Source: Chitinophaga agri (GTDB taxonomy: Bacteria; Bacteroidota; Bacteroidia; Chitinophagales; Chitinophagaceae). From it: a stretch of 64,000 nucleotides of DNA. Below are positions 1 to 13,587 of the stretch, in pieces. Where the stretch lies: contig NZ_CP048113.1 in assembly GCF_010093065.1 (NCBI RefSeq), positions 124,001 to 188,000 on the forward strand. Direction: 5' to 3'. The notes beneath the pieces were generated by a model that was not told the origin of the DNA, did no database searches, and saw only the letters and a program-made list of their open reading frames with translations. The position numbers were made by a program, and so were the translations under genes. The first letter of the stretch is position 1; each line of letters starts with the position of its first letter.

Positions 1-322
1 AGCGGGAGATACCCCAGTTACAGTGTACCAGTACCTTCTTGTCCGTTAGATGACGGTCCATGAACAGCATGCACCTTTCAATGATAGGGTGGGTATATTG
101 CGGCATCAGCTCCTGGTCCATGTCCACCATATTGAGGTATAAATGACGATCGCCATGCAGATGCATCAGGTAGGAAGGGTGACTGGATTTCAGGTTGCCT
201 TTGTATCCAACCGCCTGACGATGACAGGGTTCCTTACACGCATGAATGATGGCAAAGCCGGCGGATTCCTGTTGGCAGTCTCTATTCGTTCCCACGTATA
301 GCTTATTATATACCTCTATCAT
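1..322 (-). CDS. Dual-specificity/tyrosine phosphatase-like protein (C-terminus outside window)
   Basis: Reading the minus strand from the ATG at 320-322 gives 107 codons that stay open to the window edge. Near the end lies HCNWGISR (H100, Cys101, R107), the HCx5R phosphate-binding loop of cysteine-dependent protein phosphatases; Cys101 would be the nucleophile. An upstream stretch with L-N-M-V-D-M-D-Q (about residues 62-69) fits the position of the general-acid Asp in dual-specificity phosphatases. The family removes phosphate from Tyr/Ser/Thr or other phospho-substrates; the substrate here is unknown. The C-terminal part after the P-loop is missing only because the window ends. Confidence 0.75.
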   Translation of the reverse strand, partial: MIEVYNKLYVGTNRDCQQESAGFAIIHACKEPCHRQAVGYKGNLKSSHPSYLMHLHGDRHLYLNMVDMDQELMPQYTHPIIERCMLFMDRHLTDKKVLVHCNWGISR

Positions 323-664
323 GTGTAATTTATCTTCGCTTATTGCGGCCTAAAAATACAGAAACTGTACATACAATTGTACATTTTCCGCTGGATATTT
401 AGCGGAAAACAATGTACGGATCGCATTTGGATGCTGCATGTATTGCACAAATAGGATGTCTCGCGCAGCATTATAGACGCCTCGTACCGAATACCTGGAT
501 ATAAATATTTCTGTTGCTGTATGCATTATAAATAAAAAGGATGGGACAATTCCAGGTAAGCAGTCCATGTTAGTGTTGGTTGTAGCCTGCCTTTCGACCT
601 TGCCACTTATCGTATGTTGTGTAGCTGAGGGAGGCTGGGCGCGGTGAAATGGCCGTTTTTAGCC
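323..664. other. Intergenic region with one stem-loop
   Basis: No convincing gene lies here. A hairpin occupies 379-417: the arm at 379-392 (GTACATTTTCCGCT) pairs with 401-417 around an 8-nt loop, with a 3-nt bulge in the right arm. It lacks a T-run on either strand, so it is not a clear terminator. The rest is AT-rich and could hold the promoter of the phosphatase gene that starts at 322. Confidence 0.4.
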
Positions 665-1771
665 TTATTCCTGCCGTTTCAGCATATTCGCCGCTAGTCT
701 CACCGGTTTAGTGAAATAATACAGGAAATAGGGCAGTTTAAGCCCTTTTACGTCGTTCCCATTCGGACGGACCAGGTGCGCCAGGTGCTGTCTTACAATA
801 TGCACCTTACCCGATAAGGGCCGCGCTGAAATAAGATGGAGATACGCCTGTTCCAGGAACGTGTATTTCCCCTGCATGGCAGGATGCTGTAAACGTTTGA
901 GTAGCAGTTTACCGGCGCGAGTGGTCATAGCGGCCTGCCCCCCTGTATCAATGCCCAGTGATGTAGCTGCCAGCTGTTTCCAGAGGATGTCAAATGGCTG
1001 CAATGCCCCGGGAACGGTTGCGGGTCCTTTCCGGTATAACAAAACCATGTCCAGCAGTGACCGCAGATGCGGATAGAAATCGCTGGCCCCGTTGTTCAGC
1101 AGCATGAGGGAATAGTAGTCCTGGCTGGTATAGCTCCGCGACAGGTAATCCTCTCCCAGCAGTTCCGTAAAGCTATATGGAAAGCCTGTTAAAGCACGGG
1201 TCGGCCGGTAATGAAATTCAAAGCTGAACCGCTTTCCCCGCGAACAACGTTTCCCGAAGGAAAGATCTTTCAGATGCTTGCTGAAATGTGCCGGATACCG
1301 GCTGAAATAATCCGCCTGGTCCATTTCGTACCCTTCTCCCTCCATGGTCGCTTTCACCCGTAGCAGCGCATCCTCCGGTATGATAATATCCATGTCGGTA
1401 AACTCCCGCATACTGATATCATTGTACAACAGCAGTGAGAAGTCCGTTCCTTTATACAAACGCGCTTTGATACCCTGCTGCTGAAGTAACTCTATAATGC
1501 GGGCAGCTTCTATCTGCCGGTCGGCAGCAAACACAAACAGATTGCGGCAGTATTGCTTAAACTGTTGCCAGGTGTCTTTGGGTACTGCTTCCGGTATTCG
1601 ACTCAATACATGGAATACGACGGGCCTGACCCTATGCCGGGCACAGAGTTCATATACCGCCTGCCACCGGATCGTATGCCCGTGTATGAAGGTCTTAAGA
1701 TCGGAAATGGTGCTTGTTTGCAGGTATACCCTGCAGCATAGGAATACTACAGTGACTTCGTTGTGTAACAT
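665..1771 (-). CDS. Lasso-cluster nucleotidyltransferase family protein
   Basis: A 368-residue protein of the nucleotidyltransferase fold found in RiPP and lasso clusters. Around residues 107-130 it carries the lysine-glycine start of the fold (YKGTDFSLLLY) followed by an acidic pair in FTDMDIII (D126, D128), the expected metal-binding carboxylates. I chose the ATG at 1769-1771 over an upstream TTG at 1783. It follows the PqqD-like gene by 4 bp, so the two form one transcription unit. In kinase-containing lasso clusters such a protein is thought to modify the peptide or its phosphate; that role here is inference. Confidence 0.75.
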   Translation of the reverse strand: MLHNEVTVVFLCCRVYLQTSTISDLKTFIHGHTIRWQAVYELCARHRVRPVVFHVLSRIPEAVPKDTWQQFKQYCRNLFVFAADRQIEAARIIELLQQQGIKARLYKGTDFSLLLYNDISMREFTDMDIIIPEDALLRVKATMEGEGYEMDQADYFSRYPAHFSKHLKDLSFGKRCSRGKRFSFEFHYRPTRALTGFPYSFTELLGEDYLSRSYTSQDYYSLMLLNNGASDFYPHLRSLLDMVLLYRKGPATVPGALQPFDILWKQLAATSLGIDTGGQAAMTTRAGKLLLKRLQHPAMQGKYTFLEQAYLHLISARPLSGKVHIVRQHLAHLVRPNGNDVKGLKLPYFLYYFTKPVRLAANMLKRQE

Positions 1772-1775
1772 ATGA

Positions 1776-2075
1776 TCAGTCAACGATCAGCATCCTGTGC
1801 TGCATCATCTTTTGAAGAAAAAGAAGGGTTTCCTGCTCGCAGAGCTGCATGCTGATCGCATACTCCTGCATCAAAGCATGTACTACATCATGGACCGCTA
1901 CAGGCTGTTCCAGTTTTTCCCAGATAACGCTGCCCACAGCATTGAGACCTATATATTCCCCATTGTGGATGTCCATCAGGACGACTTCTTCTCCTACCCG
2001 GCTTACAAGAAAATTACGCTCATTCCGTCGTATGACCGTTTCTTTACAAAGGGGCAATTGTACACTTTCTGACAT
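1776..2075 (-). CDS. PqqD-like lasso peptide recognition protein (B1/RRE)
   Basis: A protein of about 99 residues with the PqqD / RiPP recognition element pattern: an N-terminal beta-hairpin (V-V-L-M-D-I-H-N-G-E-Y-I-G-L-N), the conserved G-S-V-I-W segment, and a C-terminal helical part. In lasso pathways the RRE binds the precursor leader and presents it to the protease and cyclase. The start at 2075 gives the usual family length; ATGs at 2087 and 2123 are in frame but would crowd the divergent promoter. It is co-directional with the nucleotidyltransferase and divergent from the kinase-B2-cyclase genes. Confidence 0.82.
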   Translation of the reverse strand: MSESVQLPLCKETVIRRNERNFLVSRVGEEVVLMDIHNGEYIGLNAVGSVIWEKLEQPVAVHDVVHALMQEYAISMQLCEQETLLFLQKMMQHRMLIVD

Positions 2076-2150
2076 ATGTTTAAACATTAATGATAAGTTG
2101 CGTGTATATAGTAATTGTAACATAATGTGACCCGAAATAGTTCATCGTTC

Positions 2151-3050
2151 ATGCATAAATATTGGGGCTTCGGCCTGTTGATCTCATCCACTGTTGAATT
2201 TCCGGAGCTGATGCCCGCCACGTCCCCGCACACGGACGTGACCATTGCCATCGGTATGGTGCCGGTCATACACGCGTCCGCTACCTTTTGTACCGGACGT
2301 ATCACCTACGATATTGTCAATGACGCAGCGTTACTGTTCACCGTCGACGGTATAGCGACCTATTATGTTGCCGACGGCAACAGGATCATCATCTCGCCAC
2401 TGGCTGATGATGTGGAACCCAGGGTGCTCAGGATGTTTGTACTCGCTGGCGCCATGGCGGGTATTCTTCAGCAGCGCAAAAAGATCCCATTACATGCCGC
2501 CGGCATCGTAACAGATGGTGGGCTTACGCTTATCACCGGTCACTCCGGAGCCGGCAAGTCGACGACACTGGCAGGATTGCAGGAAAAAAAATACCCGATA
2601 TTCACAGATGATATTACCGTGCTGCACCACTGTGCTGATGATGACCGGGTGAGGGGCACTGCAGCTTATCCGATGCTGAAGTTATGGGAGCAGTCCATGC
2701 AGACCCTCCAGCTGCACGACCGCTCTTTCCCGGTAATGCCGGGTATGGAGAAATACGGCGTTTTCTTTCACCAGGACTTCGATACACAGCATTATCCCAT
2801 CCGGAGGATTATCCTCCTGGCTACAGCAGATATTGATGAAATAAGACATGTGCAGCTGAATGGAAGTATGGCCTTCACACAGGTCATACAGCATATTTAC
2901 AAACCGGTACTTTTCAGGCAACCAGCCGTTCGGGCCGTTTGTTTTCATATGATCAGCGCGATGACACGACAGGCAGTCACCCATTGTGTCACAAGGCCAC
3001 TGCAGAGTGATCCGGCTGAATTATTAACCGTTGTAAAGTCCCTGCTGTAA
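2151..3050 (+). CDS. HprK-like kinase of the lasso cluster
   Basis: A 299-residue protein with a Walker A loop GHSGAGKST (about residues 130-138 from the chosen start) preceded by P-L-H-A-A-G-I and followed by F-T-D-D-I, as in HPr Ser kinase/phosphorylase-type kinases and PEP carboxykinase-like folds. Kinases of this family sit in lasso clusters of the paeninodin type, where one was shown to phosphorylate a precursor's C-terminal Ser (established for that family). I chose ATG 2151; an in-frame GTG at 2127 is possible. The stop abuts the B2 start with no gap, which implies translational coupling. Confidence 0.8.
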   Translation: MHKYWGFGLLISSTVEFPELMPATSPHTDVTIAIGMVPVIHASATFCTGRITYDIVNDAALLFTVDGIATYYVADGNRIIISPLADDVEPRVLRMFVLAGAMAGILQQRKKIPLHAAGIVTDGGLTLITGHSGAGKSTTLAGLQEKKYPIFTDDITVLHHCADDDRVRGTAAYPMLKLWEQSMQTLQLHDRSFPVMPGMEKYGVFFHQDFDTQHYPIRRIILLATADIDEIRHVQLNGSMAFTQVIQHIYKPVLFRQPAVRAVCFHMISAMTRQAVTHCVTRPLQSDPAELLTVVKSLL

Positions 3051-3461
3051 ATGAAAAAGGTCTTTACTGCCACGTTATTATTCACAGAAGCCTGGTGCTG
3101 GCTGGGCGTTGCCCGTCTGCTACTGGTTTTTATGCCATTCAGGAAAATTGTACCCCTGCTGGGAGACAGTATACCGGCCGACCCGACCGCACCAGTGACG
3201 AAGACGATCCGCCCCCAAAGGATCCGGGCCGCTATCAGGAGGGCCGCTGCCTGTGCCCCCTGGCGAACGAAATGTTTTGAACAGGCGTTGGCTGGTAAAC
3301 TGATGCTGCGCTACCGGAAACTGCCTGGCGTTGTTTTTTTCGGTGTCAATAAGAACGGGAATAAGATGAATGCACATGCATGGCTGGAATGCAATGGCAT
3401 CATTGTCACCGGTCACACCGGCATAGATGAGTATACTGTTATCGCCCGTTTTAAAAGCTGA
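3051..3461 (+). CDS. Lasso peptide biosynthesis B2 protein (transglutaminase-like leader protease)
   Basis: A 136-residue protein of the B2 family, which cleaves the leader from lasso precursors. The Cys (C75 in KCFEQALAG) and His (H109 in NAHAWLE) of the transglutaminase-like protease site are visible, and D126 is a candidate for the third member. An N-terminal hydrophobic segment (about 7-28) is common in B2 proteins. It lies directly between kinase and cyclase, with a 3-bp gap to the cyclase ATG. In this cluster type the RRE (B1) and protease (B2) are separate genes, as seen here. Confidence 0.85.
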   Translation: MKKVFTATLLFTEAWCWLGVARLLLVFMPFRKIVPLLGDSIPADPTAPVTKTIRPQRIRAAIRRAAACAPWRTKCFEQALAGKLMLRYRKLPGVVFFGVNKNGNKMNAHAWLECNGIIVTGHTGIDEYTVIARFKS

Positions 3462-3464
3462 TGC

Positions 3465-5300
3465 ATGAGCTCCATTTTTGGTATTATATATAAGAACGGT
3501 CGGCCTGTTTCCCCGGAAGAAGCCGCTGCTATCACCCAGGCGGTGCAGCACGCCGGTGTCGGTAAGTGTACGCCCTGGATAGATGATAATGTGCTCATCG
3601 GACAATGTCCCCATGCACCGGCAGCCAGCATACCTGCTGATCTGCTTATAGCTGACGAGCTGCTGGTGGCTGCTGATGTCCGGATAGACAACCGCGGGTA
3701 TATGCTGGATAATCTGCCGGCTGACAGGAGTTACACCGATCAGCAGCTGCTGTTGTCCGCCTACCGTAAATGGGGCATGCTGGCACTCCACCACCTGGAA
3801 GGGGAATATGCATTCTGCGCATGGGATATTGAACAGCGCCGCCTTTTCCTGGCGACTGACCATATGGGGTTCCGGCCGCTTTATTATTATAACTCCGACG
3901 ACGTATTTATTTTCAGTTCAAGTCTGAAAGCAGTACTCGCCGTGAAGCCGAAACCACATGTGTTCAATGCGGAATGCCTCATCAACTATCATTTCCGGCA
4001 GGGGGATGCCGCGGATACATATACGAAAGATGTCTATGCTTTTTGTGGTGGTAATTACCTGACCCTGCATGGTCGGAAAATACACATGGCGAAATACTGG
4101 AACCCACTTCCGGGAAGATATAAATTAGACTCGCTGGATGATTGTACGGAAGCATTAAAAGAACTGCTGCTCACAGCCATCAGGAACAGGATCATGCCTG
4201 ACCGCCCGATAGGAATTACACTCAGCGGCGGACTGGACTCCTCGTCCATCGCCTGTTTGCTGGCGCGTGAACTGTTCCGGCAAAACAAACCGCTGTATTC
4301 ATTTTCTTCTGTTTTGTCTGAAAATGCTGCAGGAAACGATGAGCGTGCCTATATTGATATCATTGGCAGGCGCTATCCGAATATAATACAGACGTATGTA
4401 GACGCCCCGGATGCGGGTCCGTTTGAAGGCACACTCGATGCCTTCAGTTGTGATGAAACCATTCCAAACAGCTTCTTCTATATGGATCATGCTATCCTGC
4501 GTGCCGCCAGGGAAGAGGGCGTAGGTATATTGTTCACCGGTTACGGAGGCGATCACTGGGTATCCTGGCAGGGCAATCCTGTCATTTATAATATGCTATG
4601 TAAAGGCTATTGGATGGACGCTTATGACCTCATCATGGAGTTTGCGGAAACGGAAAACATCCATCCCTTCCAGGTAGCTAAAAGAGAACTGGCGCCGCAC
4701 ACACTATTATACCAGACACTACGCGGTGCGCAAAAGAAGAAGATGCGGGACACTGCATTGCATCCTTCCTTTCTGCGTAAATACGGATCAGCACTCGACT
4801 TCAGACCTGTAAGGGATATCACGGCCTTTATGACCGACAATATCATCAGTGGCCGTACGGGGCAGTTCCTGGGGATGCTGAACGGCCGGAACAACGCTTA
4901 TGGAATGGAGTCAGCAGTGCCACTGCTGGACCGCCATATCGTCGAACTGATGATGGACATGCCGGAAGAGGCATTTATCTTCAATGGACATAAGCGTAGT
5001 CTGCTGCGCCATACCATGGAAGGTGTACTGCCGGAAGATATATTATGGCGAAAGGATAAAGGCCGGTACTCGCCCGATTTCCCGCAGCGTATCACTGCCG
5101 GCCTGCCCAAGGCTGCCGAAGTGATGCGCAACCAGGAATATGCGATGGTGTTTGACCGTTACCTGAGCAAAGAAGCTATCCGGCGTTTAGCCGGTGGGGA
5201 TGAGCTGTCTATGATCAGAATGACACAGGGTATCATATGTAGCATGGTACTCACGTCATTACAAAAAAATGGCTATGTATTTGATGATAACTTTTCTTAA
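3465..5300 (+). CDS. Asparagine-synthetase-like lasso macrolactam synthetase (C protein)
   Basis: A 611-residue homologue of asparagine synthetase B. The N-terminal glutaminase-like domain starts MSSIFGI, with Ser where glutaminases carry the catalytic Cys after Met, so it should not use glutamine. The ATP-pyrophosphatase loop LSGGLDSSS is at about 253-261. In lasso pathways this enzyme adenylates the Asp/Glu side chain of the core and closes the ring onto the N-terminal amine. Position after B2 and just before the small precursor gene supports that role. A true asparagine synthetase is unlikely given the lost Cys and the context. Confidence 0.85.
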   Translation: MSSIFGIIYKNGRPVSPEEAAAITQAVQHAGVGKCTPWIDDNVLIGQCPHAPAASIPADLLIADELLVAADVRIDNRGYMLDNLPADRSYTDQQLLLSAYRKWGMLALHHLEGEYAFCAWDIEQRRLFLATDHMGFRPLYYYNSDDVFIFSSSLKAVLAVKPKPHVFNAECLINYHFRQGDAADTYTKDVYAFCGGNYLTLHGRKIHMAKYWNPLPGRYKLDSLDDCTEALKELLLTAIRNRIMPDRPIGITLSGGLDSSSIACLLARELFRQNKPLYSFSSVLSENAAGNDERAYIDIIGRRYPNIIQTYVDAPDAGPFEGTLDAFSCDETIPNSFFYMDHAILRAAREEGVGILFTGYGGDHWVSWQGNPVIYNMLCKGYWMDAYDLIMEFAETENIHPFQVAKRELAPHTLLYQTLRGAQKKKMRDTALHPSFLRKYGSALDFRPVRDITAFMTDNIISGRTGQFLGMLNGRNNAYGMESAVPLLDRHIVELMMDMPEEAFIFNGHKRSLLRHTMEGVLPEDILWRKDKGRYSPDFPQRITAGLPKAAEVMRNQEYAMVFDRYLSKEAIRRLAGGDELSMIRMTQGIICSMVLTSLQKNGYVFDDNFS

Positions 5301-5324
5301 CTTCAATGAATCCAATATCACAGT

Positions 5325-5453
5325 ATGAAAAACGAAGCAACACGACCAGTCCCAGTATGGGAAACACCTGACATGATTGTTCTGCCTATTAACGAAGTTA
5401 CGCTTGGCAATGGAGAAGCGGGCTTTGACTTCGCGTCCGAAATTAGCGCCTGA
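5325..5453 (+). CDS. Putative lasso peptide precursor (42 aa)
   Basis: A 42-codon ORF starting 24 bp after the cyclase stop. The leader (residues 1-27) contains W12-E-T-P15-D-M17, matching the Y-x-x-P-x-L recognition motif of lasso leaders with W for Y and M for L, and ends in T26-L27, giving the hallmark Thr at position -2. The predicted core is GNGEAGFDFASEISA: Gly1 as ring amine, Asp8 as acceptor (8-residue ring) and a 7-residue tail. Leader motif, Thr(-2), Gly1 and Asp8 all sit at canonical spacing in the expected neighbourhood. The product is predicted, not shown. The penultimate residue of the core is Ser14, which the cluster kinase could target. Confidence 0.8.
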   Translation: MKNEATRPVPVWETPDMIVLPINEVTLGNGEAGFDFASEISA

Positions 5454-5461
5454 CATCATCG

Positions 5462-6367
5462 TCATCCCAATTTTACACCATGTCGTACTCCGAACTGGTC
5501 TGCATAGTATGCAGGCACATAGCCCTCGTAGACGTACAGCATGTTTGTTCTGATTGTGCGGCCGCCTGCACAGACTATTTCCATAACCTTATCCTGTATA
5601 ATAACTGTACCTGGATGGGTGTTTGTGTGAGTAGCTGTGAGGGCGCCGTCCATTAACTTCAGTTCCTGCCCGTTGAAGATAGTCATCGCCCCTTTATTCC
5701 AGGGATTGCAAGCCCGTATCAGGTTACATATTTCTGTGGCAGTCATCTGCTCCCAGTTGATCAGTATATCGTGCAGCTGTGGCCGTTTATGATAGCCGGC
5801 CTGTTTGTTACCGGCACTGATCGCAGGTAACGGCATACGTTGCCTAAGCATCGCTATTATGCCCATGACGCCTTCTATGCAGTACTGGCTGCATAACTGG
5901 TTAACTGCCGCATACGTGTAGTGTGGCTGATCAGGTATTGTCTTTGTCCATACGACCTGGCCCGCATCAAACTTTTCTGACAATACATGTATGGTAAACC
6001 CAAGTGTGGGCTGCCCTGTTTTCAGTTGCCAGAACACCGGCGATGGCCCCCGGAAGCAAGGTAACGGCCCCGGATGAATGTTAAATGCAGGAATACCTGC
6101 AAAACGTTTTATATCCAGCAGATAACGGTAGCCATATACGAATACAGTCTCCGGACGAACAGCATCCAGCCATTCATATACATCCGTGGTGACGTTTTTT
6201 TCCATCTGCATGGGTAGCCGCGCTGCCTGTATAAATGCCTGTACTTTCTGCTGTGCAGCAAGATCCTCCGTGGGAGAAAAGAAAATACACACCTGCAAGC
6301 CCTGGCTTGCAAGTGTGTAGGCGAGCGGGATGAAATGATCCCCGCCGGAAATGATACCTATTTTCAT
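5462..6367 (-). CDS. Formyltransferase family protein
   Basis: A 301-residue protein with the formyltransferase fold. Asn96, His98 and Asp134 (FNIHPG ... EKFDAGQ) reproduce the catalytic N-H-D triad with the same 2- and 36-residue spacings as methionyl-tRNA formyltransferase. The loop GPLPCFRGPSPVFW resembles formyltransferases that act on small amines rather than the tRNA enzyme, and the C-terminal domain is short. It is the last gene of a minus-strand operon with three collar-domain proteins (8-bp gap) and converges on the lasso precursor gene, the stops 8 bp apart. The formylated substrate is unknown. Confidence 0.75.
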   Translation of the reverse strand: MKIGIISGGDHFIPLAYTLASQGLQVCIFFSPTEDLAAQQKVQAFIQAARLPMQMEKNVTTDVYEWLDAVRPETVFVYGYRYLLDIKRFAGIPAFNIHPGPLPCFRGPSPVFWQLKTGQPTLGFTIHVLSEKFDAGQVVWTKTIPDQPHYTYAAVNQLCSQYCIEGVMGIIAMLRQRMPLPAISAGNKQAGYHKRPQLHDILINWEQMTATEICNLIRACNPWNKGAMTIFNGQELKLMDGALTATHTNTHPGTVIIQDKVMEIVCAGGRTIRTNMLYVYEGYVPAYYADQFGVRHGVKLG

Positions 6368-6375
6368 ACTGATTT

Positions 6376-6954
6376 TTAGTGACTCGGATATATGCCAAAG
6401 AGGGCAATGATGTAGTTGACAGTGACGTATGGCATCATGTTGTTATGCGCCTGTGTGCCACCTGCAGGACCGATAGACATGGGGTCCATCAGTGCATTGG
6501 GCACAGTGGTGCCGCCTCCGGGTAAGGGCAGTGTCGTATACAGGTTAACATCCGGGTAAGCCGTTGGACCTGTGTTATTATTGCCGTTAGTGACAGCGAG
6601 CATATTGTTGGAAGGAGAGCCGGTTGTCGCAGCAGTATTCACCGCTACCAGTCCATGTGTATGGTTAGGGATGTTGGTGGTCAGCAGTGTGACATTCTGT
6701 GTGCCTGCCGCTTGCCCCAGCATATAGCTGCCGGAGCCGCCTGACGGACTGATTTGTCCCATACTGACGGCGATCCTTACCCGCATATCAGGTAGCGCGA
6801 ACGTCGTGATGCCGTCTCCGCCATATTGTGTGCCGATCAGTGTAAACAGCGCCTCATATTCAGCGATAGACAGTAATGCGCCATTGCAAACTGACCAGCC
6901 GACAGGAGCAAAGTTGCCACCAAATAGTCTGATCTCTCCCAGATAATTATCCAT
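6376..6954 (-). CDS. Phage tail collar-domain protein, copy 1
   Basis: A 192-residue protein beginning MDNYLGEIRLF, with an N-terminal collar domain (about 5-60: G-E-I-R, G-W-x-x-C-N-G, L-F-x-L-I-G-T-x-Y-G-G-D-G, F-A-L-P-D) and a Gly/Asn/Thr-rich C-terminal half ending N-x-M-P-Y-V-T-V-N-Y-I-I-A-L-x-G-I-Y-P. This is the layout of microcystin-dependent-protein / tail-collar family members, widespread in Bacteroidota outside prophages. Two paralogues lie directly upstream (24- and 40-bp gaps). The function in bacteria without a phage context is unclear. Confidence 0.8.
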   Translation of the reverse strand: MDNYLGEIRLFGGNFAPVGWSVCNGALLSIAEYEALFTLIGTQYGGDGITTFALPDMRVRIAVSMGQISPSGGSGSYMLGQAAGTQNVTLLTTNIPNHTHGLVAVNTAATTGSPSNNMLAVTNGNNNTGPTAYPDVNLYTTLPLPGGGTTVPNALMDPMSIGPAGGTQAHNNMMPYVTVNYIIALFGIYPSH

Positions 6955-6978
6955 AAAATCTTTTTAGAGGTTTAACAT

Positions 6979-7530
6979 TTAGTTACGTGAGGGGAATATG
7001 CCCTGTGTGGCGATACAGTATATCAGTGTCAGGTAGGGCATCCTGTTCTCATGTGGAAGGTTGCCTCCCGTAGCAGTAACACAAGGGGCCATGCTGACCG
7101 TAGCACCGCCTGCAGGCGCGAAGAGGTTGACGGTACCTGTATTCTGTCCCGGTTGCGTGGGAGAGCTGGGTGTATTCGGATTACCAAAGTAGTTGGTGTT
7201 CGGACTACCCTGATCGTACGAGTTATTGGCATTTACAGGGTGCGAATGTGCGGGCAGTGTGCTGACCGTCAGTGTCACTGTTTCTGTACCTGCTGCCTGA
7301 CCAATGTTGTAGTTCGTACCGGAGGTACTGCTGCCAGTACCAACGATAGTGCGACCGTTCAGGTTAGGCAGCATAAAATTGGTGGTGCCATTACCACCAT
7401 AGTAAATACCCAGCAGGGCAAACAACGCCTGGTTCTGTGCGATAGGAAGTGTTTGTCCGCTGCAGGACACCCAGCCTGTGGGGATCTGCGTATAAGGGAA
7501 CAGACGGATCTCTCCGAGATAGTTTTCCAT
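6979..7530 (-). CDS. Phage tail collar-domain protein, copy 2
   Basis: A 183-residue paralogue of its neighbours. I set the start at ATG 7528-7530 (MENYLGEIRLF), because the 22 residues further upstream are not conserved with the paralogues. It contains the same G-E-I-R ... G-W-x-x-C-S-G-Q ... L-F-A-L-L-G-I-Y-Y-G-G-N-G ... F-M-L-P-N-L collar pattern and the conserved C-terminal N-R-M-P-Y-L-T-L-I-Y-C-I-A-x-x-G-I-F-P signature. Low-complexity Pro/Thr/Asn stretches in the middle suggest a fibre-like trimeric region. It is the middle gene of the triplet. Confidence 0.8.
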   Translation of the reverse strand: MENYLGEIRLFPYTQIPTGWVSCSGQTLPIAQNQALFALLGIYYGGNGTTNFMLPNLNGRTIVGTGSSTSGTNYNIGQAAGTETVTLTVSTLPAHSHPVNANNSYDQGSPNTNYFGNPNTPSSPTQPGQNTGTVNLFAPAGGATVSMAPCVTATGGNLPHENRMPYLTLIYCIATQGIFPSRN

Positions 7531-7570
7531 GTTTTTGATAAGATAAGGTGAGTAAATGAAGAAGGGGCGA

Positions 7571-8125
7571 TCAGGGGTGCTGAGGGAAAACGCCACTGGC
7601 GCAAATACAGTAAGTCATTGCCAGATAGGGGTCCATATTCGCATGTGGTGTGGTACCGCCGGTTGGACTAAGGCTTTGCGGATTTAACGTCGTACCGCCC
7701 TGGTTATTGGAATACACAACTATCCCCCTGTTTGCACCGGTACTAAAACCATTGGTGAGATAGGCATTCGTACCAGGCTGGGAGATCGCTGCGGCGGTCT
7801 GTGCCTGACTGGTACGTACAACAGCCTGCATCATGTGGTTGTGCGCAGGTATGGTTGCCGTAGTCAGTGTGACAGTTTCACTGCCGCCCTTTATACCAGG
7901 TGCATTGAACGAGGAATTCTGCAAACTGATGCCCAGAGCGGCTACACCGCGCAGATCAGGTACTGCAAAGGTAGTCGTACCATTGCCGCCATAACTGGTA
8001 CCAAGGATCGCGAATAGGGGGGCATTACTTTGAATGGGGTAGGTACTTCCGTTACAGGGAAGCCAGCCCGAGGGGACAAAATTGAATGCAAAGGCTCTTA
8101 TTTCGCCTACATATGCATCTGCCAT
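7571..8125 (-). CDS. Phage tail collar-domain protein, copy 3
   Basis: A 184-residue first gene of the operon; ATG at 8123-8125 (MADAYVGEIRAF). It has the same collar domain (G-W-L-P-C-N-G, A-I-L-G-T-S-Y-G-G-N-G, F-A-V-P-D-L-R-G) and C-terminal signature (M-D-P-Y-L-A-M-T-Y-C-I-C-A-S-G-V-F-P) as the two downstream paralogues. None of the three has a signal peptide. The absence of capsid, baseplate, sheath or lysis genes nearby argues against a prophage or a contractile injection system. Confidence 0.8.
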   Translation of the reverse strand: MADAYVGEIRAFAFNFVPSGWLPCNGSTYPIQSNAPLFAILGTSYGGNGTTTFAVPDLRGVAALGISLQNSSFNAPGIKGGSETVTLTTATIPAHNHMMQAVVRTSQAQTAAAISQPGTNAYLTNGFSTGANRGIVVYSNNQGGTTLNPQSLSPTGGTTPHANMDPYLAMTYCICASGVFPQHP

Positions 8126-8313
8126 AAACAAGTGTTTTTTGGGTGAATAATAAGGATTATAAAATGGGTGAATACGTCAGAAGTGTGGAGTCAGCACAAA
8201 CTGTTTTTCATGGAACTTGGTCATACTTCAGGGAAACATTCTTAACTCTGTAGCAGGTATATTTTCTGTTTTAAGTCTATTGTAAGTTACTAATCCTGAG
8301 CGGGAAATAAAAA

Positions 8314-8351
8314 TTTAAAGGGAAATAAAAGACTTTTTATTTCCCTTTAAA
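8314..8351 (-). terminator. Strong stem-loop downstream of the TetR gene
   Basis: A perfect 17-bp inverted repeat: 8314-8330 pairs with 8335-8351 around a 4-nt loop (GACT). It lies 34 bp beyond the stop of the TetR gene and before the collar operon, so it most likely ends TetR transcription. The stem is AT-rich and contains its own A/T tracts. The GGGAAATAAAA part of the left arm also occurs just upstream at about 8302-8312. Confidence 0.75.
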
Positions 8352-8385
8352 ATCTGTAATTATATTAAATAGGCATTGCCGGTAA

Positions 8386-8967
8386 TTATGCCAGTACAGA
8401 CAATGCCACTTTCACGATATCATCCAGCGATCTCTTATCAGGCTTGGCCTGTCCGCTGATACGTAAACCGCTATATGTATTGAAAAGATGTCTCGCTATC
8501 GCCTGTGGTGTAAAGGTCTTACTCATCTCTCCCTGTTGCTGCGCCTCTTTCACCCATTGCTGGAACAGGTGCTCCATTCCCTCCATGTTCTGCAACGCCA
8601 GTACACCCACTTCCTCGTCGACATTGGACAGTTCTGCAGTGCTGTTCACCATCAGACAACCATCCCTTTTTTCATCGCGCAGTATCACCTCCACCATGTA
8701 TTTGAAAGCGATCTTTATTTTCTTGAGCGGAGAGCTGGTTACGGCAACTGCCTGCATTAATGACTGCTGCTGGCTGGACAGGTAATAATGCAGGCAGCGC
8801 ATGAACAGGCGATGTTTATCTCCGAATGAATTGTACAAACTGGAACGACTTAAACCTGTTGCCTTCGTAAGATCATCCATTGAGGTGCCGTTATATCCTT
8901 TATGCCAGAATAACGCCGTCGCTCTTTGTAAAACTGTCTCTTCATTGAATAATACTTCTTTAGGCAT
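8386..8967 (-). CDS. TetR/AcrR family transcriptional regulator
   Basis: A 193-residue protein with an N-terminal helix-turn-helix (about 8-55: R-A-T-A-L-F-W-H-K-G-Y-N-G-T-S-M-D-D-L, G-L-S-R-S-S-L-Y-N-S-F-G-D-K) typical of TetR repressors, and a C-terminal ligand-binding domain containing R-D-G-C-L-M-V-N-S, as in TetR_C proteins related to AcuR/NemR types. It follows the SDR gene on the same strand (47-bp gap). A palindromic operator lies directly before its start and two more before the SDR gene, which suggests repression of both. The inducer is unknown. Confidence 0.88.
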   Translation of the reverse strand: MPKEVLFNEETVLQRATALFWHKGYNGTSMDDLTKATGLSRSSLYNSFGDKHRLFMRCLHYYLSSQQQSLMQAVAVTSSPLKKIKIAFKYMVEVILRDEKRDGCLMVNSTAELSNVDEEVGVLALQNMEGMEHLFQQWVKEAQQQGEMSKTFTPQAIARHLFNTYSGLRISGQAKPDKRSLDDIVKVALSVLA

Positions 8968-8983
8968 TGCTGTTCATTTTAAA

Positions 8984-8999
8984 TGGAATATTCGTTCCA
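8984..8999. promoter_or_regulatory. TetR-type operator, copy 1
   Basis: TGGAATATTCGTTCCA lies 16 bp upstream of the tetR start. It has the form TGGAA-N6-TTCCA, shared with two sites upstream of the SDR gene (9821 and 9855). A site so close to the start fits autorepression by the TetR protein. Confidence 0.7.
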
Positions 9000-9014
9000 A
9001 ATGTAAGCAAAAAA

Positions 9015-9764
9015 TCATAATGTGCTCATACCACCATCGGCGATCAGTTCTGACCCCAGCAGGAAAGTTGAATCATCTGACGCCAGGAAGAGCGCTACCT
9101 TCGCAATTTCTTCCGGTGTACCGAAACGACCAATAGGTATGCTGGACTGTATATGGCTGGCGGTTGCGGAAAGCTGATCTGCTGCCAGGCCAAGTTTACC
9201 ATACAGCGGTGTGCTAACCGGACCAGGACTGACTGCATTCACACGGATCTTACGGCCGATCAGTTCTGCGGATAAGTTTCTGATCAGTGTCAGCTGCGCT
9301 GCTTTAGTGGCGGCATAAACAGATGCATTCGCCATACCGATGTGCGCGTTGATAGAAGTATTCAATACGATAGCACCGCCATCATGCAGGATAGGCAGTA
9401 ACTGCTGAATAGTAAAGAAGGAACCTTTTACGTTGATATTAAACTGCTCGTCAAAGAATGCCTCAGTCGTCGCCTCAATAGGAGAGAACTTCGCTACACC
9501 TGCATTCAGGAACAGAATGTCAATGACCGGATGTATCGCAGCCACCTGTGCCTGTAACTGCATAATGTCTTTCATACTACCTGTGTCAGATGCAATGCCG
9601 CTGGCCGATGTGCCCAGTTCCGCTACTGCCTTGTCTATAGATTCCTGATTACGGCCGGTAATGATCACTTTTGCGCCTTCAGCAATAAATAACTGCGCTG
9701 TCGCAAATCCGATACCGCTGTTACCACCGGTAATGAGGGCTACTTTATTTTCTAACCTGTTCAT
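9015..9764 (-). CDS. SDR family oxidoreductase
   Basis: A 249-residue classical short-chain dehydrogenase. The cofactor loop TGGNSGIG is at 12-19, NAGV at 87-90, and the catalytic Ser137, Tyr150 and Lys154 (YAATK) are present. The T-G-R-N segment after beta-2 favours NADP(H). The C-terminal G-S-E-L-I-A-D-G-G-M is typical. Substrates of this subgroup are small aldehydes, ketones or quinones; none can be assigned. It is transcribed toward tetR, with two operator copies upstream, so it is probably the main target of the regulator. Confidence 0.88.
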   Translation of the reverse strand: MNRLENKVALITGGNSGIGFATAQLFIAEGAKVIITGRNQESIDKAVAELGTSASGIASDTGSMKDIMQLQAQVAAIHPVIDILFLNAGVAKFSPIEATTEAFFDEQFNINVKGSFFTIQQLLPILHDGGAIVLNTSINAHIGMANASVYAATKAAQLTLIRNLSAELIGRKIRVNAVSPGPVSTPLYGKLGLAADQLSATASHIQSSIPIGRFGTPEEIAKVALFLASDDSTFLLGSELIADGGMSTL

Positions 9765-9820
9765 AAAATTGATTTTAATCGTGATGTACTGTTTTATTAT
9801 TAAGATTGATCTGTGTTGTT

Positions 9821-9870
9821 TGGAACGATCGTTCCGGATGTAAAATTAGTAATGTGGAATGAATGTTCCA
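9821..9870. promoter_or_regulatory. Two TetR-type operators upstream of the SDR gene
   Basis: TGGAACGATCGTTCCG at 9821-9836 (its inner 14 bp are a perfect palindrome) and TGGAATGAATGTTCCA at 9855-9870 share the TGGAA-N6-TTCC form of the site before tetR. Their starts are 34 bp apart, 57-106 bp upstream of the SDR start, which suits repression or cooperative binding. Confidence 0.75.
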
Positions 9871-10214
9871 AATAAACTTTTAAGCACCGGTAAGATCAGC
9901 AGGGAAGTGATGATGTATAAGTGTTTTTTATATAGTGTTAAGAAAGGACCGGACTACATAGCATCTTTTGTCCTTTTTATCAGTATACAGATCCATGGCT
10001 GTTCCTCAATGATCGGTATATTTTTCTGTTTACCATAGCGTGGGCAGGATAATGTTCGATTGCGACTATTAAATGCATAAAAATGCCATCGCATACCCGG
10101 TATCCGGGCCTGCCGGGATGGCTTACATAAGGTTGGACAGGAGGGAATAAAAAGCAGCAGCGCCTATCAGAAATGGCCTGTTTTTTCGTTAGATTTGTAG
10201 TAACCTGATTTCCG
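9871..10214 (+). promoter_or_regulatory. Intergenic region with a promoter-like box for the downstream membrane protein
   Basis: No gene is evident. TAGATTTG at 10190-10197 is a perfect Bacteroidota -7 box (TAnnTTTG), 17 bp before the ATG at 10215; no clear -33 TTG stands at the usual distance. GC-rich inverted segments occur around 10105-10125 but form no convincing terminator. Confidence 0.4.
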
Positions 10215-10712
10215 ATGTCCCAATCCGCCACTCGCCGACCCGCAACTGTTGAGGAGCAATCGCCTATTCCTGTACTTGAAACAGACGTAGTATTTGCTGA
10301 CCTCCTGATATGTATCTCTTTTGCGACGCTGTCGCTCGCCACAGCAATACTGCTGCTGTTTAATATGTCCGCCGCTGCATGGGGCGGTCAGCTGACATTA
10401 GCGTTCTTCTTCATAGCCATCGCTATGTGGGCCGCCTGGTCTTCAGAGACCTACCATCTGTACACGGACAAACTGCTCATCAAAAAGCCGCTGACATACC
10501 TGTCGTCCACAACAACGGTCATTCCGTTATCCTCCATGAAAGAAGTGACAATTAAAACTGTAAAATACCGGCACAGAAGAACGTATCTGACCATAAAGAC
10601 CCGTAGCCGTACCTATCAGTATACGGTCAGCAGGGATATGGAATTTATAGACACCTTTATTGCCGAATTACAGCAACGGGGCGTTAACGCACATAAAGGC
10701 AGTTATACCTGA
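10215..10712 (+). CDS. Small membrane protein with PH-like cytoplasmic domain
   Basis: A 165-residue protein. Two hydrophobic segments (about 27-50 and 57-75) form a helical hairpin, followed by a basic, beta-rich C-terminal domain (L-Y-T-D-K-L-L-I-K-K-P ... I-P-L-S-S-M-K-E-V ... Y-L-T-I-K-T-R-S-R) resembling the PH-like domains of bacterial membrane proteins. No enzymatic motif is seen. The stop is directly followed by the stop of the convergent gene at 10713. Function unknown. Confidence 0.6.
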   Translation: MSQSATRRPATVEEQSPIPVLETDVVFADLLICISFATLSLATAILLLFNMSAAAWGGQLTLAFFFIAIAMWAAWSSETYHLYTDKLLIKKPLTYLSSTTTVIPLSSMKEVTIKTVKYRHRRTYLTIKTRSRTYQYTVSRDMEFIDTFIAELQQRGVNAHKGSYT

Positions 10713-11159
10713 TCAGGCATCCTCTCCGGGGTGATCCTGGAACTCTGTAAAATCTTCTATTGCCCCCTTCGTTAGCTCATCCAGCTCCGGATGTTGTAAT
10801 AAGGCATGCATCTTTTCTGTCAGCATTTTATGCTCCAGGTAATCCTGGTCCGCGTTCGTCAGCCGGTTCAGCATCCAAACCGTCAGTGGCGTAGGGCGCC
10901 TGTCCAGCGATGCGATCAATGCATCATGATAATACTCATGGAATGACTCCAGCGTGTGCACCAGTGGACCAGGTGATCCATAATCAATATGCGGATATTT
11001 CTCTATCAGCCGGAATATAGGTTCTATTGCTTTCTCCTTGTCGGCATTCTGTTTCAGTGCCTCCATCAGGTCATAGAAGTAGGAGACGTTATCATCATCG
11101 GAGCGTTCTGCTGGTTGAAAGGCCTGCAAGGCCTGTATGATCTCATCAGTAGTCATCAT
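10713..11159 (-). CDS. Hypothetical acidic helical protein
   Basis: A 148-residue soluble acidic protein, predicted mostly helical, with the motif H-I-D-Y-G-S-P-G-P-L-V-H-T-L-E and a later P-T-P-L-T-V-W-M-L-N-R-L. Layout and composition recall small helical-repeat proteins, some of which are toxin-immunity proteins, but no toxin gene is nearby, so that is only a possibility. ATG codons at 11159 and 11156 are adjacent; either could be used. It is not in an operon with its neighbours. Confidence 0.6.
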   Translation of the reverse strand: MMTTDEIIQALQAFQPAERSDDDNVSYFYDLMEALKQNADKEKAIEPIFRLIEKYPHIDYGSPGPLVHTLESFHEYYHDALIASLDRRPTPLTVWMLNRLTNADQDYLEHKMLTEKMHALLQHPELDELTKGAIEDFTEFQDHPGEDA

Positions 11160-11388
11160 GGAATTGTTAAGGGTTTGAAACGTTAATTATCTCAGCAGTG
11201 GCGTATAACAGGGTTAATAACTTAAAAATAGGGAAATTTACTGAATAAGCATTGCAACCGACAGGTGCCCGGTACACCGTACCTAACTTGTATTTACATA
11301 TTATTAATCTGTGTTGTATCATTGGATATTCGCACTGAAATAGCTATTTTCATACTTTTTCCCCTACTGCACACTTAACTGACAGCAA

Positions 11389-11796
11389 ATGCAAAATTAT
11401 GTAGTGCTTCCTACAGCGGAAGCCGAAGCACAAAAAGTTTTTCAGGATCTGCTGGACCAACCTGACCAGGTCTTACTATTAATATTGGGGGACGACGATG
11501 TAGCTGCTGAAGCAAATGATACTGCTAACTTTATCAGGTCAAAGACCGGCAAAACAGGCATGGGTATGTATGATATGGTCATCTTCGTCCGGGTGACCAT
11601 CCCGGCGGTCCTCCTGCCCATGTTAAAGAAAATGGAATGGCACCCCCGCGTGAAGCCTTCCGATTATGATAGCTTCGTATTGCTCTCCATCTCCCCATTC
11701 AGGAATGTTGTATCAGAAGGTGTGACCAGACCCCGTTTTATGAAGGGAAGAGGAAGTATGCACACTGCCGTCATGACGGCTTACGCTAACGGTTGA
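11389..11796 (+). CDS. Hypothetical protein
   Basis: A 135-residue soluble protein with alternating hydrophobic strands (V-L-L-L-I-L-G-D-D-D, M-V-I-F-V-R-V-T-I-P) and no motif I recognise. The 229-bp region before it is AT-rich. It precedes the secreted protein at 11827 by 30 bp on the same strand, so they may be co-transcribed. No function can be given. Confidence 0.6.
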   Translation: MQNYVVLPTAEAEAQKVFQDLLDQPDQVLLLILGDDDVAAEANDTANFIRSKTGKTGMGMYDMVIFVRVTIPAVLLPMLKKMEWHPRVKPSDYDSFVLLSISPFRNVVSEGVTRPRFMKGRGSMHTAVMTAYANG

Positions 11797-11826
11797 GTTC
11801 CTGTTTTACCTTAATGAAAATCCCAT

Positions 11827-13587
11827 ATGCGACTTTTTACATTGCCATGTGCTATCCTGTTTCCTTTGTTATTTGGCAGCAGCGTCTACGCGCAGTCTGT
11901 CATCTCTGTTGTGGAAACTGATCAGAATAATCGTACCTACAGTAATAAAAATAACGCCGACATCAACAGCCGGCTGACCATTCAGTTTAACCGTTCCACT
12001 TTTATCCGGAAGGTCAACACCGCTGGTATCGGTAGCCCGCTGCCATCCGATGCGGTGAACATGATCAATGTCCTGTATGAAGCCTCCCGTAAAGTTGACG
12101 GATGGGCCAGGGGAATGGAAGAAGCCGTGCGTCAGCATGTGCGCGGCGATAAGAACAGTCTGCCGGCATTCGTCGAACGTACCTCCGCCATCGCACAGGA
12201 GATCATAACGGTATTCGACAAAGATCCTGCTACACGCGATTACTTCGAATCCTATGAAGACGTCACCGATATCTGGGGAGGTATTACCTACGCGCTCAGC
12301 AAACGGCTGGCTGACCTGGAGCAACAGCTCACAGATGGCGCCACCTATAATGACGTCCGGATCCAGATCGGCGCTTGGCTGATGCACAATAATCAGCCGT
12401 CTCCTTTGCATTTTAACGGGCTGGATGATAATCCGCAGGGTGAATACTACGAAGTGGAACGCTGGAAGTTTACGCTCACCGATGCACAGTTGTCCCAGCT
12501 GGAAGATATCCAGCAATCTGTACGGAGTAGCCAGCAGCGTGAAATGAACGTAAACGAGATACTGAGAGGAGAATATGTCCGCCAGTTCACCGATATCCTC
12601 CAGCAAAGACTGAAAGCTGATTATGAAGACTTCCGTAAGGAAGCGGCAAAGGTATTGACCACCCTGAAGGACCAGCAGGTCATGTACGATATCAGACAGG
12701 TACTCGCACAGGGGGACCTGCTCAAAACACGCCTGAATGAGCGGGTAAAATACTATCAGACGCTGGGCAGCGCCAACACAACAGCCAGTGCCGGATTTCT
12801 GTCCACGTTGCAATCCGACATCATCCTGCTGAATAGTGAGTTCAATAAAATGAAGGTGTTACTGACCGCTCTCAAAACCGACATCCCGGCTGCATCAGCA
12901 GAAGTGCAGACACAGGCAGCTAACCTGTTGGCCATCGCTTCCGGTAAGATCACATCGCTGGCAGATATGATCATTCCTGATGACCTGCTGCAATTCGGTA
13001 AGGAAGAAAGAAGGCTGGCAGAGCTGGCGCTTCGTTTTTCTGATAAAGTTTTTTCATTGGCACTGGGTAGTATCCCGTCTGAAGCAACCACCGATCTGCT
13101 CTATGCCGGTTACCGCGAATCAGGTGACCGTGTGGTCATTAAGATGCAGGTGACCAATATCAGTTCAAAGCGGAACCTGATGGAGGAAACCCATAGTCTC
13201 ACTTTATACCGTATTCTTGCGCATATAGAGGCCACTGTAGGGGTTATTTTTGCCCACCCGCTCATCACTACCAACATTCAGAAGGACGTCCAGATGGCGC
13301 CTTATTACAATGTGCTGTTCAAAGGTATATTTGGGACGAGCCAGCACTGGAAACGGAATTCCTCCCTGCCTAATAACCTGCTGGACCTGAACTTTGGTTT
13401 ACATGTCTCATCTCCCGACTTTGACAAGGATGATGTACCCGAACTGGGACTGGGTATTGTAGCGTCTACCCTACATGATTACCTGCAGGTAGGATGGGCT
13501 TATAACCTGTTTTACGGTGCTAACTATGTTTTTGTCGGGTTTAGATTGCCGATACCGACGATGAGCCTGGGGAAGAAAGAAAATTAG
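11827..13587 (+). CDS. Secreted coiled-coil protein of unknown function
   Basis: A 586-residue protein with a clear signal peptide (about 1-22, ending S-V-Y-A-Q). The central part (about 80-400) is rich in Glu/Gln/Leu/Lys and probably helical or coiled coil; the C-terminal 150 residues look beta-rich (L-L-D-L-N-F-G-L-H-V-S-S ... G-L-G-I-V-A-S-T-L ... Y-V-F-V-G-F-R-L-P-I-P), which could be outer-membrane strands. No catalytic motif is visible. Probable location is the periplasm or outer membrane. The downstream gap holds a nested inverted-repeat element. Confidence 0.65.
   Translation: MRLFTLPCAILFPLLFGSSVYAQSVISVVETDQNNRTYSNKNNADINSRLTIQFNRSTFIRKVNTAGIGSPLPSDAVNMINVLYEASRKVDGWARGMEEAVRQHVRGDKNSLPAFVERTSAIAQEIITVFDKDPATRDYFESYEDVTDIWGGITYALSKRLADLEQQLTDGATYNDVRIQIGAWLMHNNQPSPLHFNGLDDNPQGEYYEVERWKFTLTDAQLSQLEDIQQSVRSSQQREMNVNEILRGEYVRQFTDILQQRLKADYEDFRKEAAKVLTTLKDQQVMYDIRQVLAQGDLLKTRLNERVKYYQTLGSANTTASAGFLSTLQSDIILLNSEFNKMKVLLTALKTDIPAASAEVQTQAANLLAIASGKITSLADMIIPDDLLQFGKEERRLAELALRFSDKVFSLALGSIPSEATTDLLYAGYRESGDRVVIKMQVTNISSKRNLMEETHSLTLYRILAHIEATVGVIFAHPLITTNIQKDVQMAPYYNVLFKGIFGTSQHWKRNSSLPNNLLDLNFGLHVSSPDFDKDDVPELGLGIVASTLHDYLQVGWAYNLFYGANYVFVGFRLPIPTMSLGKKEN

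Follow-up and report, generated by a model that had tools for sequence, protein, structure and literature searches.

Organization of the locus

The window, by which we mean the whole stretch of 64,000 nucleotides of Chitinophaga agri that was analysed, carries the following genes:

665..1783, minus strand: NT, NTP_transf_5 nucleotidyltransferase-like protein (PF14907 at 101.3 bits, cut-off 31.2)
1776..2123, minus strand: B1, PqqD-like leader-binding protein (PF05402 at 58.9 bits, cut-off 23.4)
2127..3050, plus strand: HK, HPr-kinase-like kinase (Hpr_kinase_C at 16.1 bits, below the cut-off of 33.3)
3051..3461, plus strand: B2, transglutaminase-like leader peptidase (NF033537 at 95.3 bits, cut-off 33; PF13471 at 87.3 bits)
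3465..5300, plus strand: C, asparagine-synthetase-like lasso cyclase (PF00733 at 126.8 bits, above the cut-off)
5325..5453, plus strand: A, predicted lasso precursor (leader 1-27, core GNGEAGFDFASEISA)
5462..6367, minus strand: FT, formyltransferase (PF00551 and PF02911, above the cut-off)
6376..6954, minus strand: phage-tail-collar protein 1 (PF07484 at 92.3 bits; tail PHROGs)
6979..7596, minus strand: phage-tail-collar protein 2 (PF07484 at 81.7 bits; tail PHROGs)
7571..8131, minus strand: phage-tail-collar protein 3 (tail PHROGs; protein cluster common to collars 1 and 2)

The cyclase scores 312.7 bits against NF033535, below the cut-off of 525, which is a threshold for naming and not a chemical property; the 20 aligned rows covering both sites keep the ATP loop SGGLDSS and lack a Cys at position 2. 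Residues C75 and H109 of B2 are kept in 16 of 16 aligned rows, and K111, G112, R126, D130 and D132 of NT in 18 of 18. B1 scores 72.3 bits against the lasso-specific NF033536, under the cut-off of 80. HK, whose GTG start is possibly too far upstream, passes no family cut-off; H123, K144, D161 and D162, which we assigned as its His-Lys-Asp-Asp residues without alignment to the kinase PadeK, are kept in 18 of 18 aligned rows. There is no ABC_membrane exporter near the cassette: the nearest of the 14 ABC_membrane matches of the genome lies about 470 kb away, a distance that falls to about 300 kb on a circular contig.

Three minor observations complete this description. At 2-322 on the minus strand, a gene cut by the edge of the window is weakly phosphatase-like (DSPc, 19 bits, below the cut-off), and 9 of the 20 loci in the genus have such a gene close to the cassette. 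No RNA element reaches the gathering score in 1-13000. A role in anti-phage defence was considered and rejected, as none of nine cassette proteins has a PADLOC match.

The precursor and its core

The original prediction had placed at 5325-5453 a 42-codon gene, 24 bp after the cyclase, with the leader motif W-x-x-P-x-M, Thr at -2, and Gly1 and Asp8 in the core. The coordinates and the spacing from the cyclase stop were reproduced, and all these residues are present in the sequence MKNEATRPVPVWETPDMIVLPINEVTL followed by GNGEAGFDFASEISA: W12-E-T-P15-D-M17, Thr26 (-2), Gly28 (core 1) and Asp35 (core 8). The ORF thus has the lasso pattern, that is, an aromatic-xx-P-x-hydrophobic leader motif, Thr(-2), a small residue 1 and Asp or Glu at 7-9. 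We computed masses of 1470.626 for the linear core, 1452.616 for the cyclised core and 1532.582 with one phosphate, in agreement with the values of about 1452.6 and 1532.6 given before.

When a loose form of this pattern was applied to the 762 small ORFs (25-75 aa) of the window, only 5325-5453 fitted; any other precursor in the window was discarded, since none of the remaining 761 does. In simulated sequence the pattern is matched 0.14 times per 20 kb (31 matches in 4.49 Mb, counting ATG and GTG starts only). Searched against 5.8 billion proteins, the 42-aa precursor had just one relative, a C. rhizophila protein 80% identical to it, and a search of the PDB gave a chance-level match alone (E 1.3). 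Because the protein database yields a single relative, we used the loci themselves for comparison.

Conservation of the precursor in Chitinophaga

A homologue of the cyclase at E <= 1e-60 is found in 20 of 79 genomes of the genus, our own included (of the named loci assigned to the genus, one is labelled Flavihumibacter and one [Flexibacter]). In each of these 20 loci the cyclase is followed by one to three intact related short ORFs, 31 in total, and two more full-leader precursors from split loci bring the number to 33. The precursors of 18 loci were detected by tblastn with the precursor of the window; those of L014 and L015, which are truncated forms, were recognised by their core in the ORF list. 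Locus L017 has one further precursor piece which is not an intact ORF. The absence of homologous short ORFs beside homologous cyclases had been named as the result that would speak against the original prediction, and the prediction passed this test since all 20 loci of the genus have such ORFs behind the cyclase.

We aligned 27 of the 33 sequences; the six left aside (the second copy of L008, those of L009, L011 and L013, and both of L019) are identical to aligned ones or one residue away from them. Thr(-2), Gly6 and Asp8 are invariant in the 27 aligned precursors, and the leader Trp is absent solely from the two truncated forms. Residue 1 of the core is Gly in all but one of the 27, the exception being a copy at L016:1165-1293 whose core would start with Leu (LNGGAGFDFGSEAST). 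The motif xxGxxG[FT]DF[GA]SE fits 16 of the 27 (counted by eye), and some clusters have extra divergent cores (GEAGSGSDF..., GYWYFGGDV...), always with Asp8. The predicted lasso core of the genus is not hypervariable. A conserved leader with a variable core had been expected among relatives: the related precursors were indeed found, but the hypervariable core was not. The conserved core argues for a fixed target or signal and not for an arms race.

For the ratio pN/pS we use the values of the whole gene, the split into leader and core being wrong for pairs involving L007, L010 and L012. Nine pairs were picked by hand: eight give about 0.22 or lower, and the remaining one 0.55. To judge from these values, the precursor gene is under purifying selection. 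From the related ORFs, the invariant residues and the low pN/pS, the precursor would seem to be a translated gene whose core is conserved. This bears on the trivial explanation that 5325-5453 is an ORF formed by chance while the true precursor lies elsewhere. Short ORFs are common, as the 762 counted in the window show, but this one is conserved in 20 of 20 loci and is under purifying selection; we consider a chance ORF so improbable that it was ruled out on these two grounds.

In the split cassettes of G031 and G066 the genes are distributed over two places. The first contains the cyclase, a 25-27-aa precursor without WxxPx and three collar genes, while the second contains B2, the kinase, B1, NT, FT and a full-leader precursor; in G031 a collar triple is present at the second place too. 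The arrangement of the second place is found again in L149 (C. oryziterrae) and L148 (C. sp. YR573). The full precursor thus remains beside the processing genes even when the cyclase has a different location.

The motif-less precursors of 25-27 aa, at L014:1394-1477 and L015:1394-1471 (L056 and L057 in the wider regions), keep Thr(-2) and Asp8; possibly they are leader-independent substrates, or else remnants, with B1 and B2 at another locus. In L059 and L163 (Chitinophaga pinensis YS-16) the reading frames of the cyclase, of FT and of one collar gene are broken, through sequencing errors or decay.

The formyltransferase and the collar triple

FT is convergent with the precursor gene and separated from it by 8 bp. 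Its residues N96, H98 and D134, presumably the catalytic Asn-His-Asp of formyltransferases, are kept in 17 of 17 aligned rows, and its best relative in the PDB is the formyltransferase of ArnA. For the collars, a profile built from the relatives of collar 1 matches phage tail fibres, the best match being 8kec (a long tail fibre), with T4 gp12 (1ocy, 1pdi) also among them. The single-chain model of a collar has a mean pLDDT of 63.4 and is confident at residues 1-60 and over the last dozen, a pattern that would suit an intertwined trimer; it is too weak for a fold search. We looked for a prophage from which the collars could derive and rejected this origin, as none of the six further neighbours scanned on the collar side against PHROGs is a phage structural gene.

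In the 20-kb regions compared, the collar triple is present in 20 of 20 lasso loci of the genus (60 collar proteins, one of L059 being shortened), and the order of the genes is cyclase, precursor, FT (18 loci) and then the three collars. The outer flanks of these loci fall into five contexts: L045-L055 with L059, L058 with L060-L063, and L056, L057 and L064 each alone. The two larger contexts share just a gene of the short-chain-dehydrogenase family, placed on opposite sides.

At E <= 1e-70, FT is found in 20 of 20 lasso genomes of the genus versus 0 of the 59 others, two of which have weak matches near 1e-16. The first type of collar, at E <= 1e-60, is confined to the same 20 genomes; both limits were set after the gap in the tables was visible. 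Some collar match at 1e-10 exists in 59 of 79 genomes of the genus, and no lasso gene was seen at twelve further collar loci outside the cassette (L072-L083). Within the genus, the distances of the cyclase agree less closely with those of FT (rank correlation 0.68) than do the distances of the kinase and of B1 (0.93 each), a point against the partnership; correlations of this kind could also come from shared species history. FT and the collar triple belong to the same cassette as the lasso genes and are inherited together with them.

Lasso genes, formyltransferase and collars beyond the genus

Outside the genus we found 37 lasso loci with B2, all of which were fetched. Six of them have a collar triple (L084, L108, L112, L123, L129 and L136), and five of these six also have FT; the other 31 show none in the stretch that was fetched, which for some is a short contig. 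Hence lasso synthesis does not require collars. One of the lasso loci, L127 from a MAG, combines three genes resembling cyclases with four ORFs resembling precursors.

In the class, FT at 300 bits or more is present in 7 of 395 genomes, and B2 accompanies it in 5 of these 7 (our own genome included) versus 12 of the 388 others. For these counts two draws were taken as the same 395 genomes, since their sizes and labels agree, and five first-look candidates were scored per genome; the Fisher values of the association ignore shared ancestry. Among 18 lasso genomes of the family, two have a strong FT and two a weak one.

We also proceeded in the reverse direction, from FT alone, with the best 80 of its 156 relatives in named genomes. 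At least one collar gene is present in 76 of these 80 loci; a lasso gene is matched nearby in 26 and none in 54. A tree of the quick kind was made from the window and 78 of the 80 loci, the two omitted including L163 with its broken FT. On this tree 4 changes are enough to account for the lasso label, versus about 23 when labels are shuffled. In one clade (SH-aLRT 99), 24 of 25 rows are linked to lasso genes, 21 of the 25 by B2, or by cyclase and B1, in the locus itself; the labels of L153, L157 and L164 come from a precursor-like ORF, and those of L160 and L180 from a cyclase match alone. The window and the genus make up 14 of the 25 rows, the rest being from Sediminibacterium, Bacteroides ihuae, Mucilaginibacter, Pedobacter and other Bacteroidota. 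The one row that is not linked belongs to Mucilaginibacter sp. E4BP6, whose genome contains two lasso clusters at other places, one of them with its own collar triple.

Genomes without B2 in the FT locus were scanned for B2 elsewhere (34 of 59 such loci): it is present in 9 of 10 genomes on the lasso-type side of the tree, a side chosen after the tree was made, versus 1 of 24 others. In L162 and L164 it lies about 25 kb from the FT locus. In Bacteroides ihuae (L156) the collars, FT, precursor, kinase, a sulfotransferase, B1, B2 and C all lie on one strand, and in L188 a gap of 3 bp separates FT from C. A gene of the sulfotransferase family adjoins the kinase in L152, L154, L156, L166, L173, L181 and L188, all outside Chitinophaga (the Pfam check was made for L152); in those clusters sulfated peptides or fibres are possible.

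These data allow us to weigh the idea that the lasso cluster is real while the collars and FT are mere neighbours, kept beside it by shared regional ancestry with no joint function. Closely related loci of the genus do share other flanking genes, collar-FT modules do exist on their own, and 31 of the 37 outside loci lack the collar triple. However, the association holds in five flanking contexts and recurs in several families, the strong FT is missing from all 59 non-lasso genomes of the genus, and genomes with the lasso-type FT have B2 even when it is not close by. We therefore consider mere neighbourhood rather unlikely.

A second idea makes tailoring enzymes of both FT and NT, which would place a formylated amino-sugar on a tail serine, the collars being incidental. 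It is suggested by the closest solved relative of FT, ArnA, a sugar-nucleotide formyltransferase, by PsmN, which installs hexoses on the phospho-Ser of pseudomycoidin (described in the part of PMC9266682 consulted), and by L066, where FT stands beside B2, kinase, B1, NT and precursor without collars. On the other hand, FT follows the collars more than it follows NT (a collar gene at 76 of the loci of the best 80 of 156 relatives, 54 of the 80 having no lasso gene nearby), and the lasso-bearing loci L152 and L181 have no NT match. On balance this role of FT seems doubtful to us.

The collar-FT modules without lasso genes have a company of their own. Of 51 non-lasso loci, 28 have a large ORF (about 700 aa or longer) no farther than 1.2 kb from the collar-FT block, versus 0 of 27 lasso loci; both limits are arbitrary (L164 has a 704-aa ORF 1.3 kb away). 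We scanned two of these large ORFs. Por_Secre_tail and SprB domains are present in the first, and MBG and cadherin-like domains in the initial part of the second, which suggests surface proteins that are secreted. In 20 loci there is also a gene of a single family, a periplasmic-binding protein in the one locus scanned; among L189-L219, lasso-free modules often carry this periplasmic-binding-like gene together with a very large ORF. Since the large ORF stands beside non-lasso modules only, the lasso cluster may take the place of a surface protein beside collars and FT. In a Bacteroidia MAG, sixteen consecutive collar-gene matches precede the FT gene (L178:1-10000).

Proposed mechanism

With a probability of roughly 90%, we conclude that 5325-5453 is a lasso precursor matured by B1, B2 and C and probably tailored by the kinase and NT, in a cassette which includes FT and the collars. 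The chemical steps are deduced from homology with the enzymes present. B1 would bind the WxxPxM leader, B2 would cleave after Leu(-1), next to Thr(-2), and C would join the amine of Gly1 to the side chain of Asp8. The 8-residue ring closed on Asp8, as originally predicted, is thus supported by the anatomy of the cluster and by the comparison of loci, and the 7-residue tail would be threaded through it.

The same enzymes might instead produce a branched-cyclic macrolactam without threading. Phe9 and Ile13 are the sole bulky residues of the 7-residue tail, and some related tails have still fewer; yet characterised B1-B2-C systems yield threaded peptides, and the xanthomonins are short lassos of about this length, so that we find the unthreaded product quite improbable and retain the lasso.

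The kinase and the nucleotidyltransferase-like enzyme would probably phosphorylate and then glycosylate a tail serine, most likely Ser14, by analogy with PadeK, PsmK and PsmN. A phosphate, if added, is more likely to be on Ser14, the penultimate residue, or on Ser11, because the C-terminal Ser used by the paeninodin kinase is Ala here. The three collars may build a short (hetero)trimer resembling a tail fibre; that three paralogous genes are kept together would suggest a heterotrimer. As FT goes with the collars more than with the lasso genes, it may act on the fibre itself or on a glycan that the fibre carries. The weakest step is the last one, in which the fibre would display, deliver or receive the peptide at the cell surface: that the collar triple and FT form a short surface fibre carrying, delivering or anchoring the mature lasso peptide, which would sit on the head of a domesticated phage tail fibre where lasso-free relatives of the module often have a very large surface protein, apparently secreted by the type-9 route, is a tentative idea which we think has a small chance of being right.

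Significance

Lasso clusters are usually described as a precursor, B1 and B2, a cyclase and sometimes an exporter and tailoring enzymes. Here, genes resembling those of tail fibres hold a fixed place at a lasso cluster which has no nearby ABC_membrane exporter. Our literature searches gave nothing linking lasso peptides with tail collar, nor tail collar with PqqD; tail collar with formyltransferase, and microcystin-dependent protein with tail collar, led to Brucella and Brucella phage only. Six fragments of the precursor were not found either, and mining tables in supplements or subscription papers may list it. The part of PMC9576775 consulted contains no Chitinophaga, and that of the 2026 review on interlocked peptides (PMC13352647) no mention of Bacteroid-, Chitinophag- or tail collar. 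The cassette as it stands, with a collar triple and a formyltransferase linked to the lasso genes, is a variant which we did not find described in the literature searched. Should collars and FT indeed work together with the peptide, lasso peptides would have a partner for display or delivery that has gone unrecognised, and the role of the stand-alone collar triples of Bacteroidota could be tested through a neighbour whose chemistry is known.

Comparison with known systems

By its sequence, 5325-5453 is a new member of the class of lasso precursors, and its cassette can be set beside five systems. The first is pseudomycoidin (psm, Bacillus pseudomycoides), where the kinase PsmK and the annotated nucleotidyltransferase PsmN stand beside the lasso genes and PsmN is required for the hexoses on the phospho-Ser (PMC9266682, in part). 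The kinase and nucleotidyltransferase are common to both, the likeness of NT and PsmN being one of description only; pseudomycoidin belongs to another phylum, its phosphorylated C-terminal Ser is Ala here, and the part of PMC9266682 consulted mentions neither collar nor FT. Paeninodin (PadeA/PadeK) is likewise made by a kinase-bearing cluster. According to the same partial source, PadeK acts on the C-terminal Ser and lasso kinases have His-Lys-Asp-Asp, residues which are conserved here, whereas the last residue of our core is Ala and the Ser is penultimate. The C-terminal Ser of the paeninodin and pseudomycoidin type is therefore absent from this core; some of its relatives do end in Ser.

BsfA of Bradymonas sediminis resembles our precursor in its Gly1-Asp8 ring, its YxxPxL-type leader motif and its kinase (PMC10368454, in part), but it has Ile(-2) and is phosphorylated on Ser3, where our precursor has Thr(-2) and Asn/Gly at 2-3. 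The short tail fibre gp12 of T4 shares with our proteins the collar domain, through the profile matches to 1ocy and 1pdi; here, in contrast, the collars are three stand-alone genes of about 190 codons, with no other phage structural genes among the neighbours scanned. Finally, the N-terminal formyltransferase of ArnA has the same formyltransferase domains as FT, is its best match in the PDB and has the Asn-His-Asp that FT keeps, while FT is a single-function protein tied to collar genes.
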